Shown here: positions 17,474 to 40,990 of the stretch, in pieces
Position numbering within the stretch: position 1 is the first letter of the stretch
Layout: each line of letters starts with the position of its first letter
DNA from: Planotetraspora kaengkrachanensis
GTDB taxonomy: Bacteria > Actinomycetota > Actinomycetes > Streptosporangiales > Streptosporangiaceae
DNA length: 64,000 nucleotides
Direction of reading: 5' to 3'
NCBI RefSeq assembly: GCF_016862895.1
Contig: NZ_BONV01000003.1
Span: forward strand, 124,001 to 188,000
Made by a program: the position numbers and the translations under genes
The notes under the pieces: generated by a model
The model's input: the letters and a program-made list of their open reading frames with translations, nothing else
The model's database searches: none
Told to the model about the DNA's origin: nothing

Positions 17474-18276
17474 CCCCAGCGCTGCGCTGCGTCGGGTTGC
17501 GTCAGAAGTTCGGCGACACCGTCGCCGTCGACGGGCTCGACCTGGAGGTCGAGCGCGGCGAGGTGTTCGGCCTGCTCGGGCCGAACGGCGCCGGCAAGAC
17601 CACGACGATCCGGATGATCACGACGCTCCTGCCCGCGCCGCCCGGCGCGATCCAGGTGATGGGCCGCGACGTGGCACGCCAGCGGACGGCCGTGCGCCGG
17701 CTGATCGGCTACGTCCCCCAGCAGCTGTCCGCCGACGGGACCCTGACGGGCAGGGAGAACGTGGCCCTGTTCGCCCGGCTGTACGACGTGCCGCGCGCCG
17801 CCCGTGCGGCGCAGGTCGCGGCCGTGCTCGACGCGATGGACCTCACCGAGGTGGCCGACCGCCCGAGCAAGACCTACTCCGGCGGAATGGTGCGCCGGCT
17901 CGAGCTGGCCCAGGCCCTGGTCAGCGCCCCGCAGCTGCTGATCCTCGACGAGCCGACCGTCGGGCTCGACCCCGTCGCCCGCGACGGCGTGTGGGACAGG
18001 ATCGCCGCGATCCGCGCGGCCACCGGGATGACCGTCCTCGTCACGACCCACGCCATGCAGGAGGCCGACGAGCACTGCGAGCGCGTCGCCCTCATGCACC
18101 GTGGCCGTATCCGCGCGCAGGGCTCCCCCGGCGAGCTGAAGGACGCCCTCGGCCCGGACGCCACCCTCGACGACGTCTTCCGGCACCACACCGGCAACGC
18201 CCTGACCGGCGACAACGAGAACGGAGGGATGCGCGATGTCCGCGCTGCCCGTCGCACCGCCCGCCGCGTCGGCTGA
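17470..18276 (+). CDS. ABC transporter ATP-binding protein (DrrA-like exporter)
   Basis: 268 residues. Walker A GPNGAGKTT, Q-loop IGYVPQQ, signature YSGGMVRRLELAQAL (first residue Y instead of L), Walker B LLILDEPTVGLD and H-loop VTTHAMQEAD are all present. The C-terminal extension LGPDATLDDVFRHHTG is the part typical of DrrA/NodI-like exporter ATPases. It starts within the stop of the MarR gene and overlaps the permease gene by 41 bp, so the three are tightly coupled. The likely role is drug or lipid export. Confidence 0.92.
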   Translation: MTPALRCVGLRQKFGDTVAVDGLDLEVERGEVFGLLGPNGAGKTTTIRMITTLLPAPPGAIQVMGRDVARQRTAVRRLIGYVPQQLSADGTLTGRENVALFARLYDVPRAARAAQVAAVLDAMDLTEVADRPSKTYSGGMVRRLELAQALVSAPQLLILDEPTVGLDPVARDGVWDRIAAIRAATGMTVLVTTHAMQEADEHCERVALMHRGRIRAQGSPGELKDALGPDATLDDVFRHHTGNALTGDNENGGMRDVRAARRTARRVG

Positions 18277-19066
18277 GACCGAGCCAGGACCGCTCGCCCT
18301 CGCCCGCACCGTCGCCTCGCGGGTCGCCACGACGTGCCTGGTCGAGCTGCAGAAGCTCCGCCACGACCGGACCGAGCTGGTCACCCGGGCCGTCCAGCCC
18401 GCGTTGTGGCTGCTCGTGTTCGGCCAGGTGTTCACCCGGATCCGGGCGATCCCGACGGGCTCGACGCCGTACCTGGACTTCCTGGCACCCGGCATCCTCG
18501 CCCAGTCCGCGCTGTTCATCGCGATCTTCTACGGCATCCAGATCATCTGGGAGCGTGACGCCGGGGTGCTGGCCAAGCTGCTGGTGACGCCGACGCCGCG
18601 GATCGCGCTGGTCGGCGCCAAGGCGTTCGCGGCCGGGGTGCGCGCGGTGGCCCAGGCCGTCGTGGTGCTCGTCCTCGCGCTGATCCTCGGCGTCCACCTC
18701 GAGACGAACCCGTTCAAGATCATCTTGCTGGTGGTCGCACTGCTTCTGGGGTCGGCGTTCTTCTGCTGCCTGTCGATCACCATCGCCGGCCTGGTGCTGT
18801 CCAGGGACCGGCTCATGGGCATCGGCCAGGCCATCACGATGCCGCTGTTCTTCGCGTCGAACGCGCTCTACCCGGTGGAACTCATGCCGGGATGGCTCCA
18901 GGTGATCAACCACATCAACCCGCTGAGCTACGAGGTCGAGGCCCTGCGCGGGCTCCTGGTCGGCACCTCCGCCCGGCTCCCGCTCGACTTCGGCGTGCTG
19001 TTCGCCTCGGCCGCCGTCATGATCGCCATCGCCTCGGCCCTGCTCCCCCGCCTAGCCCGCGGCTGA
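18236..19066 (+). CDS. ABC-2 type transporter permease (DrrB-like)
   Basis: 276 residues with six predicted membrane segments (for example FLAPGILAQSALFIAIFYGI, VVVLVLALILGVHL and GVLFASAAVMIAIASALLP) and the ABC-2 C-terminal word PLFFASNALYPVELMPGWLQ, followed by NPLSYEVEALRGLL. This matches daunorubicin-resistance DrrB-type permeases. GGAGGG lies seven bases before the ATG. It is the last gene of the marR-ABC operon and ends nine bases before the first unit of the 53-bp repeat cluster. Confidence 0.92.
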   Translation: MSALPVAPPAASAETEPGPLALARTVASRVATTCLVELQKLRHDRTELVTRAVQPALWLLVFGQVFTRIRAIPTGSTPYLDFLAPGILAQSALFIAIFYGIQIIWERDAGVLAKLLVTPTPRIALVGAKAFAAGVRAVAQAVVVLVLALILGVHLETNPFKIILLVVALLLGSAFFCCLSITIAGLVLSRDRLMGIGQAITMPLFFASNALYPVELMPGWLQVINHINPLSYEVEALRGLLVGTSARLPLDFGVLFASAAVMIAIASALLPRLARG

Positions 19067-19074
19067 CCCCCGCC

Positions 19075-19401
19075 CGTGATCATGCACACCTTCGGGAAAA
19101 CACTGTCCCATCTGCGCATACACATGTCGTGATCATGCACAGATTCGGCGACATGGCCCCTCACCTGCTCGAACAAGCTTCGTGATCATGCGCGGGTGAG
19201 GCGTCCTCGTCCAGGCACTGCCCCCGCATCGCGTCCGCCACGGCGCACGCGGGTCGTACGCCCAACCCTGCGACCCCCGATATTGCATGATCACGCACGC
19301 CATCAATGCTGGTCAGGCCCCATCCTCACGAATCTGTGCATGATCACGCCCAGCATCGGTCCTGGCCAGCGCGCGCTTCCGCGAACCCGTGCATGATCAC
19401 A
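19075..19401. repeat. Cluster A of 53-bp repeat units, three forward and three inverted
   Basis: Forward cores CGTGATCATGCAC begin at 19075, 19128 and 19181. Inverted cores (GTGCATGATCACG and variants) begin at 19283, 19336 and 19389. Every step within a half is exactly 53 bases. Complete units also share TTCG at unit positions 17-20 and a CTG or CAG word at 38-40. The innermost unit on each side loses the pattern soon after the core. About 90 bases without repeat lie in the middle. The region 19067-19478 has no other feature. Confidence 0.8.
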
Positions 19402-37596: not shown

Positions 37597-38484
37597 TCAG
37601 GAAGCCTCAGCCTCCCGTTCGTCCGGGACGGCGACGGGATAGGGGTGCCGGGCGGAGAAGCCCAGCAGGCGCTCGGCCACCCCGAGGTCGACGGGCGCGG
37701 AGCGGCCGGGCATGGGCGCACGCCGCTCGGATCCGGGGTGGAACCGTTCGACGAGTTCCTCCGTCGGGTGAGACGCCAGGGTGGTGGGCGCGGTGACGAA
37801 GACCGCGTGGTATCCGTCGAAGGGACGGGTCACGCCCAGCCAGCAGGCCGAGGCGGCGTCACGGGTGTCGAGGTAGGTCCACAACTCCTTGGCGCCCGAG
37901 CCCGGATCCTCGGCGTACCGGGCGACCGCCTTGTCGAACTTGTCGCCGGGACCGCCGAGCAAAGGAAAGCGGAGGGCCGCCACGGACATCCCGTACCGGC
38001 GGGCCATCATCTCCGCCGTCGCCTCGTCGACCTGCTTGGACAGCCCGTACGGATCCTCGTTCTGCAGGGGAAGGGACTCGTCGACCGGCACGTATGCGGG
38101 GTGCCGCAGCGTCGAGGCCCAGGGCAGGCCGAGCACAGAGAAACTGCTCGCGATCACCGCCCTGCGCACCCCCGACGCGCCCGCCTCCTCGAGGACGACG
38201 AAGGTCGCCCTCGTGTTGCCGCAGAAAACCTCCTCCGGGGTGCCGAGGCTGGGTGCGGGGATCGCCGCGAGGTGCACCACCGCGTCCACCCCGTCGAGCG
38301 CCTCGCGCACGGCCGCGGTGTCGCCCGCGTCGGCGGTCACCACGCGGTCGGCGGGCAAGCCTCCCGGGTCCCGCAGGTCGAGCGCGGTGGCGGGCACGCC
38401 CCGCGCGGCGAGCAGGTCGAGCACCGCCCGCCCCAGCCTGCCGGCCGCGCCGGTCACCAGAACGCGACGCGGTTGGTCGGTCAT
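37597..38484 (-). CDS. NAD-dependent SDR, uronate dehydrogenase-like
   Basis: 295 residues. Extended SDR: VLVTGAAGRLGRAVLDLLAA loop, AVVHLAAIPAPSLGTPEEVF, RAVIASSFSVLG, and DPYGLSKQVDEATAEMMARR with the YxxxK pair. LYxY-type substrate loops differ from UDP-sugar epimerases, and the short length plus RPFDGYHAVFVTAP fit the group of sugar or uronate dehydrogenases often linked to LacI genes. A start site GGAAAGGGG precedes the ATG. Its promoter carries a 14-bp LacI-type operator, so it probably belongs to the carbohydrate regulon of the neighbouring fusion regulator. Confidence 0.78.
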   Translation of the reverse strand: MTDQPRRVLVTGAAGRLGRAVLDLLAARGVPATALDLRDPGGLPADRVVTADAGDTAAVREALDGVDAVVHLAAIPAPSLGTPEEVFCGNTRATFVVLEEAGASGVRRAVIASSFSVLGLPWASTLRHPAYVPVDESLPLQNEDPYGLSKQVDEATAEMMARRYGMSVAALRFPLLGGPGDKFDKAVARYAEDPGSGAKELWTYLDTRDAASACWLGVTRPFDGYHAVFVTAPTTLASHPTEELVERFHPGSERRAPMPGRSAPVDLGVAERLLGFSARHPYPVAVPDEREAEAS

Positions 38485-38572: not shown

Positions 38573-38592
38573 TGCCACCCCACCCCCTTCCG

Positions 38593-38765
38593 CGTGATCA
38601 TGCACAGGCTCGCGCGGACCACCCCTGACCTGCCCCCACCCCCCGCGTGATCATGCACACCTTCGCGGAAACCCGCCCCCACCTGCCCCGTACAGCAGGC
38701 GTGATCATGCACACCTTCGCGGAAACCCGCCCCCACCTGCACGTACGGCAGGCGTGATCATGCAC
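38593..38765 (+). repeat. Cluster B, forward half: four 53-bp repeat units
   Basis: Cores CGTGATCATGCAC begin at 38593, 38646, 38700 and 38753 (steps 53, 54, 53). Units two and three are nearly identical over their whole length, including CACCTTCGCGGAAACCCGCC and CACCTG. The fourth, innermost unit keeps only the core. The array fills the gap between the start region of the SDR gene and the end of the GNAT gene; no other feature is seen in 38573-38822. Confidence 0.8.
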
Positions 38766-38822
38766 GCGTGACCGTACGGCAGGCCCGGGCACGACGCCCC
38801 GATCGGCCCGGGAGCTGGAAAC

Positions 38823-39593
38823 TCAGCCGCGCTGGAGGTAGGTCCACGTCTCGACGACGCGGAAACCGAGCAGTTCGTAGAGGGGCAGGCCATCGGAGCT
38901 GGCCTGGAGGAACGCCACGCGCGCGCCGGCGGCGTACCCGTCCCGCAGCACCGCCTCGGTGGCGGTCCTGCCGTACCCACGGCGCCGATGGCCCGGCGGG
39001 GTCGAGATGTTGAACACCCCGATGTGGTCCCCCACGAGGATGCCGAATCCCGTTGAGACCGGTTCTCCGTCCGCTTCGACGAGGTACGCCGTCGCGCCCG
39101 GCATGTCCAGGATCTCCGGCTGGGCCAGCGCCGCCATGATGTCCACGGGAGCCTCGAAGCCGGCGGCGAGAACGTCGCGGTAGAGCTCGTGCTCCTTCCC
39201 GTCTACGGTCCGGACCGCGTGGCCGTCCGAGGTGAACGTCACCGGCGCCGCCGGCATCGCCATGAGCGGAAGCCGCATGCGATGGGTGAGCCCGAAACGC
39301 GTGGCCACCTCGACGAGCTCCGGTGTGGGCTCGCCGCGCACCTGGATGCTCCACGGGACGGCACTCTCCGTCATCCGGTGGGCGAACTCGGCCACCTCGT
39401 CGACGTCGGGCTCGCGACTGTCAGTGAACACGCCGTTCAGATGGGGCAGGGGAATGCCGGACGTGATCAGAAGGGTGCCGTGTTCCCCTCGCGGGCTGTC
39501 CACCCCCAGGCCGACCGTAAGCAAACGCTCGAAGGCCAGCAGGAGCGCCTTCGCCGCGCCGTCGGCCAGGCCGTCCACGCCGATGTCACTCAT
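38823..39593 (-). CDS. GNAT-family N-acetyltransferase, flanked by inverted 53-bp repeat arrays
   Basis: 256 residues. The acetyl-CoA loop PPGHRRRGYGRTATEAVLRD (motif A, R/QxxGxG/A) and the strand ARVAFLQASSDGLPLYELLGFR (motif B) are clear in the last third. The first 125 residues form a second, degenerate GNAT-like half (GVFTDSREPDVDEVAEFAHRM), as in two-domain GNATs. The substrate is unknown. It has no close ribosome site and no co-directional partner. It lies alone between four forward and four inverted copies of the 53-bp unit, which is the most striking thing about it. Confidence 0.85.
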   Translation of the reverse strand: MSDIGVDGLADGAAKALLLAFERLLTVGLGVDSPRGEHGTLLITSGIPLPHLNGVFTDSREPDVDEVAEFAHRMTESAVPWSIQVRGEPTPELVEVATRFGLTHRMRLPLMAMPAAPVTFTSDGHAVRTVDGKEHELYRDVLAAGFEAPVDIMAALAQPEILDMPGATAYLVEADGEPVSTGFGILVGDHIGVFNISTPPGHRRRGYGRTATEAVLRDGYAAGARVAFLQASSDGLPLYELLGFRVVETWTYLQRG

Positions 39594-39743
39594 GAGGGGA
39601 CCACACCGCTTTCACGTCGCGAGATACCCAAGGCGGATATCGGGCGGACAAAAGTAGCAGATCCATAAAAACGCCATGTTTCATCGCATTAGCGTCACCG
39701 CACGAAGGACGGTCAGCTTCGCGCGGCGAAGAACGCTCTCCGC

Positions 39744-39915
39744 CTGCATGATCACGAAGCAAGGATCCGCAGGTCGGACGCCCTCCTCGCGAATCTGCGC
39801 ATGATCACGCACGGCATACGACCAGCTCAGCCGTGACGCGCCCGAACCCGTGCATGATCACGCGCGAGGGGGGCGCAGGTCAGAGCACCTGCGCCCGAAC
39901 TTGTGCATGATCACG
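39744..39915 (-). repeat. Cluster B, inverted half: four 53-bp repeat units
   Basis: Inverted cores begin at 39744 (CTGCATGATCACG), 39797 (GCGCATGATCACG), 39850 and 39903 (GTGCATGATCACG); all steps are exactly 53. On the minus strand the units read CGTGATCATGCAC, then TTCG at 17-20 and ACCTG or AGCTG at 36-40. The innermost unit again keeps little more than the core. The outermost core overlaps the last codons of the lacI-type gene and provides its TGA stop. The stretch 39594-39743 between the GNAT start and the array shows no gene. Confidence 0.8.
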
Positions 39916-40990
39916 AGGAAGGGCGGGCGGAAGGGGGGGCGGTGGAGTCGCGGACCACCAATGTCACGGGGAGGAGCAGCGACCTCGGACGCCGGTCGGG
40001 TTCCTCAATGCAGTCGAGCAGCATCCGGGCGGCCTCGGCGCCGATGTCGTGGTGCGGCACCCCCACCGTCGTCAGCGGCGGGCGCAGCTTGTCGATGAAG
40101 GGCATGTCGTTGAAGCCGACCACGCTCATCTCGTCCGGGCAGGAGATCCCCCGCTCGGCGAACACGTCGTAGCAGCCGAGCGCGATCAGGTCGTTTCCGG
40201 CGACGACGGCGGTGAACCGGTTGTCGCGGTCGAGCAGTTCGCGCATCGCTGTGGCCCCGTCGGCCTCGTTCCAGTGGGCGCACTCGACGGTGAGGGAGGG
40301 GTCGTCCTCCAGTCCGTGGTCGCGGATGGCGTGCCGGAACGCCCTGGACCTGACCACCCCCGTCGAGGTGCTGTGCGGGCCGGCGAGGTGGGCGATCCGC
40401 CGGTGTCCCAGCTCGGCCAGGTGCCGGACGGCGAGGGCGATGCCCGTGGCGTCGTCGGCCGTCACGCACGGGACCTCGAGGTTCTCGACCCGCCGGTTGA
40501 CGAGCACCATCTTGACGCCCTGCTCGTGCAGCGCCTCGAGGAACGGGTGGTCGACCCGCGCGGTCGCGATGATGAGGCCCTCGACCTGGCGGGAACGCAG
40601 GGAGTCGATGCGCGCCCGCTCCCGCTCGGGGTCGTTGTCGGTGTTGACGATCCAGGCGCTGAAGCCCTCCGCCTCGAGGACGTCCTCGATCCCCCGGACG
40701 ATCGGCGGGAACAGCGGGTTGGTCAGGTCGGGGATGACCAACCCGACCGTGCTCGACTTGGCGGTCTTCAGGCTCCGCGCGATGGGATTGGGCTGGTAGC
40801 CGAGCGTCTTGGCCGCCTTGATCACACGTCTGGCCGTCTCGGCGCTGACGAGGCGGCGCGTGCTCGGGTTCAGGGCGCGTGAGGCGGTGGCGGCGTGCAC
40901 CCCCGCCGCCTCGGCGACGTCCCTGAGCGTGGGGGGCTGAGCCCGCTTGACCTCCCCGGCAGGGGTTAACGAAGGCTGGTTGGGTCTCAT
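39911..40990 (-). CDS. LacI-family transcriptional regulator of the Liv/catabolic regulon
   Basis: 359 residues. Helix-turn-helix and hinge: TLRDVAEAAGVHAATASRAL and LGYQPNPIARSLKTAKSSTV. The effector domain has GLVIPDLTNPLFPPIVRGIE, FTAVVAGNDLIALGCYDVF and SVVGFNDMPFIDKLRPPLT. It is the last gene of the SBP-MFS-lacI operon (ATG overlaps the MFS stop). Its likely operators are four 12-bp sites GCAMWCGWTTGC on its own operon, the Liv operon, the FAD oxidoreductase/hydrolase promoters and the dehydrogenase operon. The stop codon falls inside a 53-bp repeat core, so its C-terminal residues (TAPPSARPSS) may be altered by repeat spread. Confidence 0.92.
   Translation of the reverse strand: MRPNQPSLTPAGEVKRAQPPTLRDVAEAAGVHAATASRALNPSTRRLVSAETARRVIKAAKTLGYQPNPIARSLKTAKSSTVGLVIPDLTNPLFPPIVRGIEDVLEAEGFSAWIVNTDNDPERERARIDSLRSRQVEGLIIATARVDHPFLEALHEQGVKMVLVNRRVENLEVPCVTADDATGIALAVRHLAELGHRRIAHLAGPHSTSTGVVRSRAFRHAIRDHGLEDDPSLTVECAHWNEADGATAMRELLDRDNRFTAVVAGNDLIALGCYDVFAERGISCPDEMSVVGFNDMPFIDKLRPPLTTVGVPHHDIGAEAARMLLDCIEEPDRRPRSLLLPVTLVVRDSTAPPSARPSS

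Follow-up and report, generated by a model that had tools for sequence, protein, structure and literature searches.

Phased repeat arrays at gene ends in Planotetraspora and their possible role as transcription-unit boundaries

Mycobacterial MIRU are intergenic tandem repeats, many of them of about 53 bp, that overlap stop codons, and by description alone they resemble the arrays reported here; unlike these arrays, MIRU units run head-to-tail, are near-identical and have no inverted partner. TTF-I Sal boxes and Tus-Ter are oriented protein-binding sites that stop polymerases or replication forks, and the present arrays are likewise oriented, with the difference that they number about 150 sites per genome (an estimate) and that their reader is putative. 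REP/BIME elements, in the available portions of two accounts (PMC3733652, PMC2817692), occur in more than 100 extragenic copies, lie in tandem or convergent gaps, supply stop codons and are arranged in opposed orientation. Our arrays share their position between tandem or convergent, seldom divergent, genes (divergent in 0/35 gaps of one set and 6/92 sites of another), but have a 53-bp unit with an asymmetric core rather than a 20-40-bp palindrome, a consensus that starts GTGATCATGCA without a GTAG/CGTC end, and, within each half, direct repeats of the unit at a constant pitch of 53 bp. The DUS of Neisseriaceae, as far as the accessible text of PMC3630211 goes, combine an invariant core with a lineage dialect, are found genome-wide and form inverted pairs at gene ends; the arrays likewise have a conserved core with lineage dialects, but are extragenic, lower in copy number and fixed in pitch. 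The string CTCTCCGTGATCATGCACCC, at SCO5864 of Streptomyces coelicolor, stands in a table of ARG boxes assigned to ArgR-shifted fragments (PMC5839063), and the ARG boxes described in the accessible part of that paper differ in being without arrays, tags or gene-end placement. Within the excerpts of the literature that were available, a search that included the core strings TGATCATGCAC and GCATGATCAC found no description of these arrays.

Two arrays in the window

The window (that is, the whole stretch of DNA that was analysed) comprises 64,000 nt of Planotetraspora kaengkrachanensis (GCF_016862895.1, NZ_BONV01000003.1, positions 124,001-188,000, forward strand). A sequence-only reading had placed eight cores around an acetyltransferase gene, and all eight were recovered at those positions: four exact forward copies of CGTGATCATGCAC start at 38593, 38646, 38700 and 38753, and the inverted copies follow at 39744, 39797, 39850 and 39903, the first two with one mismatch each and the last two exact. 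The steps, given by that reading as 53 and once 54 bp, measure 53, 54 and 53 bp on the left and 53, 53 and 53 bp on the right, and the gene between the arms does match an acetyltransferase (GNAT, PF00583). Left and right arms are 77% complementary over their outer 88 bp; the epimerase, GNAT and LacI-type genes are all on the minus strand, and the LacI-type gene takes its stop codon from the TGA of the outermost inverted core in the right half. A second complete array at 19075-19401, with three forward and three inverted cores and a gene-free interior, had been overlooked. The reported absence of a transposase or integrase extends to both sites, which hold the GNAT gene or no gene inside and have four ordinary neighbours. 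Scanning the window with a 13-mer at up to three mismatches gave 52 matches, compared with 20.6 (s.d. 4.9) in shuffles, and the 14 matches with 0 or 1 mismatch all lie inside one of the two arrays. The features are as follows.

19075-19193, plus strand: second array, left half, with three cores; begins 8 bp after the stop of the ABC-2 permease gene (18236-19066)
19283-19401, minus strand: second array, right half, with three inverted cores; the space between the halves is gene-free
37597-38484, minus strand: NAD-dependent epimerase; its start faces the left half
38575-38592, plus strand: C-rich left leader, bordering the left half on its outer side
38593-38765, plus strand: left half, four cores at 53, 54 and 53 bp, that is, three full units and a terminal core
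38823-39593, minus strand: GNAT acetyltransferase gene (PF00583), resident and not cargo; orthologues lie between inward-facing cores in 5/5 Planotetraspora
39744-39915, minus strand: right half, with four inverted cores spaced 53 bp apart
39911-40990, minus strand: LacI-family regulator, ending within the right half
39916-39945, minus strand: right leader, C-rich on the minus strand and complementary to the left leader (inverted repeat of 19 nt, 89%)

Anatomy and placement of the arrays

The exact 12-mer GTGATCATGCAC occurs 320 times forward and 332 times in reverse in the genome of the window, compared with 0 + 0 for a reversed-pattern control. The first 400 kb of contig C1 of genome G000 contain 56 exact cores and 13 sites with at least two cores, from which we extrapolate an estimate of about 150 sites for the window's genome. 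The 12-mer listing gives three exact cores in contig C2 of G000 compared with many in C1; the distribution of arrays over the chromosome may be uneven. For the paired pattern, all of the named matches listed were to Planotetraspora (mira, silvatica, thailandica, phitsanulokensis and sp. A-T 1434), in a listing from which the window's own genome may be missing. Across 200 genomes of the Streptosporangiaceae the exact pair is massively present in 5/5 genomes of the same genus and in G059, and is found twice in G119, eight times in G186, once in G196 and in none of the other 191. The looser pattern GTGATC-N47-GTGATC is positive in both genomes of genus g34 (2/2) and, among ten sampled genomes of genus g65, clearly in G119, G186 and G193 and weakly in G199; a further g65 genome, G202, is also positive, and the remaining genomes show a background of 0 to 6 matches.

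Unit anatomy was counted on 126 half arrays distant from locus ends. Spacing is constrained, with 333 of 352 steps measuring 53 bp (13 are 52 bp and 4 are 54 bp), and 114 of the 126 halves hold three to five cores. The unit consensus runs GTGATCATGCACAGgTTCG, about 12 nearly free positions, C[CT]GACCTGC, AC.C and a final C. Pooling the halves showed that the innermost core of a half generally has no conserved tag after it; this accounts for the inner units that had earlier been described as decayed, which are not specially so here. Leaders outside the halves are rich in C (C 0.51, G 0.19), beside gene ends and gene starts alike, while the 20 nt that follow stop codons lacking an array have C 0.38 and G 0.34. 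A Rho-type C-rich RNA was rejected, since the leader is C-rich but the units have merely C 0.32 and G 0.29.

The free spacers are 0.36-0.39 identical within a locus and 0.35 between loci. Compared layer by layer, the arms reach 0.383 in compact and 0.446 in wide pairs, against 0.346 between loci, with 0.44 in the outermost layer; on these values, giant RNA arms paired through their spacers were not kept as a general explanation.

Single halves account for 55 of 92 sites and inward-facing pairs for the other 37; per contig, when a half is counted only with at least two cores, pairs make up 5/13 sites in G000, 6/13 in G125 and 1/9 in G104. Wherever neighbouring halves lie less than 200 bp apart, the order is plus then minus (36/36, including two overlapping calls; eight are exactly 11 bp apart), and the random scatter without inverted pairing that would have spoken against the sequence-only reading was not seen. 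Within 3 kb there are 66 such plus-then-minus pairs, 54 with less than 200 bp between the halves and 12, like the GNAT pair, wider; the 12 amount to 10 loci after two recognised orthologous pairs are merged. The opposite order at 0.2-3 kb was seen once only (2620 bp), in a count that dropped halves near locus ends, whereas the 66-pair count kept them. Two minus halves in succession, about 1.8 kb apart with a lone plus core between them, occur on contig C4 of G000, outside the pair and orientation counts. Long-range convergent pairing of single arrays was also considered and rejected, the order along contigs being not strictly alternating.

The arrays prefer gene ends. Placement was scored with our own simple gene caller, which miscalled genes beside the 19075 array, so that some error attaches to the counts. 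On its outer side, a half faces a gene 3' end in 87/126 cases and a gene start in 39/126; 52 halves begin 6-40 bp past a stop, and in 21 the TGA of the core is itself the called stop codon. On three contigs totalling 1.18 Mb, the 35 array-bearing gaps comprise 22 tandem, 13 convergent and 0 divergent, compared with 506, 148 and 175 among the 829 array-free gaps; in the wider set, 6/92 sites are divergent by call (the calls were not individually inspected). Of the eight single arrays on the G000 contig, two have no neighbouring gene end to which they are in sense orientation. Intrinsic-terminator-like sites are equally rare at array-bearing gene ends (2/30) and at others (39/625). This rarity would make another device for termination or insulation useful, which is a motive for such a device and not evidence for it.

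Inheritance, dialects and the wider core

The GNAT site is inherited: in 5/5 Planotetraspora genomes searched, inward-facing cores flank the gene at the same position, even if G104 retains no more than one core on one side of it and two on the other. The gene without the arrays, which the sequence-only reading would have taken as speaking against itself, was thus not seen in any of the five. In G059, which belongs to another genus, the GNAT orthologue is absent. Spacers at the locus are still 0.70-0.90 identical between units of G125 and G022. Many other sites are inherited as well. In 400 kb of G000, 12 of 13 sites have a counterpart in G125 and 9 in G104, judged by order and flanking genes (the thirteenth falls outside the G125 stretch compared; among the counterparts, units were compared at five and sequences aligned at five). 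The number of cores per half is 2-3 in G104 and 3-5 in G000 and G125. At one convergent junction G000 and G125 carry an array, whereas in G104 the two stops are 16 bp apart with no array between them; elsewhere, G125 has a paired array (C1:60118-60491) in the place of another gene of G000 and G104. Gain of an array can thus accompany loss of a gene, or vice versa. Next to one array, a small gene has opposite orientations in G104 (C1 30612-31089, in the reverse complement of the stretch examined) and G000 (C1 28095-28573), and the G104 copy is flanked by cores on both sides; arrays may serve as sites of recombination.

There is no consistent cargo: the genes enclosed by other pairs include those for UbiA, a histidine phosphatase, TypA/BipA, an aldehyde dehydrogenase and an M20-type peptidase (the last assigned by eye). 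A search of plasmids and phages with the left half of the GNAT array gave no match, and viral contigs contained no inverted pair; four of them carry a direct repeat that looks coding by eye.

Inheritance reaches beyond the genus at some junctions. The arrays of g34 and g65 are flanked by 61 distinct proteins, of which 19 match the Planotetraspora set (A-T 1434 included), and the ten at 77-94% identity belong to six loci. Four of these loci share the array junction across genera (L252/L104, L297/L109, L306 with G000 and G125, and L250/L187, the last matched on one flank only), and two, L063 and L311, do not. The junction after prs (a gene named by eye) carries an array in G059, G084 and P. thailandica and none in G022, G034 and G065; in other genera, no array with another core was seen after prs among the readable loci, several of the 30 (G000 included) having shown the other side of the gene.

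The units also differ by lineage. The tag CAGAA (positions 10-14) marks 103/116 units of P. thailandica compared with 1/373 in the other five sets, and TTCC instead of TTCG marks 59/62 units of sp. A-T 1434 compared with 3/427 elsewhere; genus g34 has GTGATCTTGCAGAAACTCGCA-like units, and genus g65 an outer GTGATCTTGTAGTTTGTCGCA. At the GNAT locus the P. thailandica tag is present in 5/6 complete units of its own species and in none of the other four species. One of the six thailandica units has a spacer similarity above background (to G000 and G022 units, not to those of G125), and the whole array may have been replaced at this locus. Arrays with different dialects at the same junction in two genera indicate that sites can outlive their dialect.

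The core itself extends further. The pattern GTGATCNTG at 53 bp was found in 8/296 genomes of the class, three of them outside the family (G292, G233 and G351), each starting with the full 11-mer. This 11-mer is abundant in G233 of family f30 (200 + 213) and in two f28 genomes (169 + 159 in G292, 30 + 15 in G231), reaches 44-54 per strand in the f40 genomes G351 and G439, is modest in the f31 genomes G259 and G274 (12-19) and stays at or below 8 per strand in other genomes, except G000 and G119 (14 + 14). At the loci read outside the family, a tag peculiar to each genome again comes after the core, and most cores point inwards close to gene ends. The pitch in f40 is 31-35 bp in the two largest arrays read and 53 bp in another, and close pairs there may also face outwards; core steps are irregular in G233 (32-94 bp) and mixed, 53 bp included, in G292. 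The f31 elements are hairpins with a fixed length of 60 bp; the core makes up their base, and their upper stems vary in part from site to site (at L405, L406, L407 and L408, 24, 21, 20 and 20 of 24 nt are complementary). Over 0.8 Mb of G233, 114/119 cores lie outside called genes and 5/119 inside, and the gaps that contain a core divide into 24 tandem, 17 convergent and 5 divergent, compared with 477, 75 and 89 among the others. At C1:1395620-1396843 of the same genome, a gene that by eye resembles an IS110-type transposase gene is flanked on both sides by forward cores, as though it had landed within an array.

The irregular and mixed steps in G233 and G292 indicate that the strict 53-bp phase is the Streptosporangiaceae form of a wider element. 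On a broader and still doubtful proposal, to which we give about a third of our credence, actinobacteria would share a gene-end code made of an invariant 11-bp core and a lineage tag, in mostly inward-facing clusters after stops, with a pitch near three or five helical turns in some families (31-35 bp in the two largest f40 arrays read, 53 bp in Streptosporangiaceae), and a putative dedicated, fast co-evolving DNA-binding or DUF559-type reader would set transcription-unit boundaries through it.

Possible readers and roles of the arrays

We tentatively favour the reading, at a confidence somewhat short of even, that the arrays are chromosomal, vertically inherited and helically phased sites for a putative trans-acting DNA-binding factor, and that they act as boundaries of transcription units. 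The unit would consist of a near-invariant core (GTGATCATGCA), a tag (AGGTTCG here), a GACCTGC block and variable filler, its 53-bp pitch corresponding to five turns of 10.6 bp; a half, mostly of three to five cores, would stand alone or face a second one inwards, often just past a stop and with a C-rich leader outside. A putative sequence-specific factor, supplied in trans, would bind the phased units, and the bound array would form a boundary between transcription units, as a roadblock, a terminator or a supercoil insulator. Our main argument is that the spacing has stayed fixed while the filler drifted, which points to a DNA-bound, phase-sensitive reader, and we infer the boundary role because the arrays favour gene 3' ends and are rare between divergent promoters. 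The lineage dialects, and the retention of sites between species and at four loci between genera, also speak for this reading. Among the alternatives that the sequence-only reading had listed, a chromatin boundary or a transcription insulator fits the placement best. Counted against phased sites are the single halves at more than half of the sites (55/92), the irregular steps in G233 and mixed steps in G292, the outward-facing close pairs of f40, the 39/126 halves that face a gene start, the 6/92 divergent sites, the two single arrays of the G000 contig that are out of sense, site gain and loss, and the possible whole-array replacement at the GNAT locus; the long hairpins into which complete pairs fold leave some probability to an RNA role.

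An alternative that we consider unlikely, though the likeliest of the rivals, is that the arrays are extragenic, REP/BIME-like repeats which a dedicated nuclease or transposase has spread and which took on gene-end roles later, with a DUF559/MTES_1575 protein as candidate partner. Their high copy number, extragenic position, tandem and convergent gaps and supply of stop codons resemble REPs as portrayed in the available text of PMC3733652. A core with a genome-specific tag and whole pairs that are present or absent between species would also agree with such spread, as would the finding that the arms enclose the same DUF559/MTES_1575-type nuclease both in P. thailandica (L140) and in two genomes of a single f40 genus (L394 and L395). 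These nuclease genes lie inside inward-facing arrays at the following places.

L140, 593-1489: DUF559/MTES_1575-type nuclease gene
L394, 1651-2469: DUF559/MTES_1575-type nuclease gene
L395, 2078-2917: DUF559/MTES_1575-type nuclease gene

The DUF559 Pfam match has an E-value of 1.9e-12 at L140, and of 3.1e-4 and 1.6e-3 for the f40 pair, both below the curated cut-off; across the two families, the L140 protein and the f40 copies are 36-39% identical. If it holds, a nuclease between the arms would be a RAYT-like arrangement, but only 3/5 homologues were seen bracketed, from two lineages, which is not proof, and DUF559 as a universal partner is contradicted by G233, where 0.8 Mb contain two homologues, neither of them within 1.2 kb of a core. 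A REP family driven by RAYT was rejected on the pattern of Y1_Tnp (PF01797, which includes RAYT): it has no match in 7/12 array-bearing genomes (G000, G022, G104, G125, G059, G186 and G202, that is, 4/5 Planotetraspora and G059 among them), and matches in the array-bearing G077, G119, G193, G084 and G034 and in 9/12 array-free genomes. Against REP/BIME-like spread in general, the unit is not a 20-40-bp palindrome, and copying does not predict a fixed spacing with drifting filler.

It is less probable still that the array, above all the inward pair, is an RNA element whose transcript would fold into a stem-loop and so terminate or shield the mRNA of the upstream gene. Many halves do lie in sense right past stops, f31 has its fixed-length hairpins, and full pairs fold far better than shuffles (z -8.5 to -26, 12 pairs), the last owing to their symmetry. 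Half arrays, in contrast, fold only slightly above shuffles (mean z -1.4 for 24 sampled from G000/window and mira halves), and an intra-unit hairpin of CAGGT with ACCTG was rejected, this pairing being broken in the P. thailandica dialect; both results make an RNA reader alone less likely. Moreover, the spacers of the arms barely match, single halves are common, intrinsic-terminator-like sites do not mark array-bearing ends (2/30 vs 39/625), and a hairpin needs no exact 53-nt spacing. An Rfam search of the window, L117, L151 and L079 returned a tRNA in L117 as its sole match and no family for the arrays.

We regard as very improbable that the arrays are DNA-uptake-like signals, that is, a species dialect read by a competence receptor. 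A conserved core, lineage dialects and inverted pairs at gene ends are shared with the Neisseriaceae DUS, in so far as the consulted part of PMC3630211 describes them, but the cores are almost wholly extragenic (5/119 in called genes of G233), the copies are fewer than the DUS counts in that part of the source (PMC3630211), and tandem arrays of fixed pitch would be left unexplained. Slighter again is the chance that the core is an ArgR operator and the arginine repressor reads clustered ARG boxes: the 12-bp core does fall within one listed ARG box of Streptomyces coelicolor and ArgR could, by sequence likeness, touch the core, yet in the accessible part of PMC5839063 this is one site, picked by a model within its fragment, and the other boxes of the table look different; the lineage tags, the GACCTGC block and the gene-end placement would go unexplained. 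Finally, the idea of a mobile GNAT cassette with phased ends, which the sequence-only reading had proposed from arms that face inwards around one gene, was rejected with almost no credence left to it, for the gene is resident between cores at the same locus in 5/5 species, other pairs hold different genes, and most pairs are empty (54/66 with less than 200 bp inside).

If the arrays are indeed phased sites for a boundary factor, each genome would carry, at the ends of its genes, a large natural set of phased and oriented binding arrays. Since dialect, unit number and site occupancy vary between sister species, the co-evolution of sites and reader would then be testable, and the question of how high-GC actinomycetes with few intrinsic terminators separate neighbouring genes would become testable as well.
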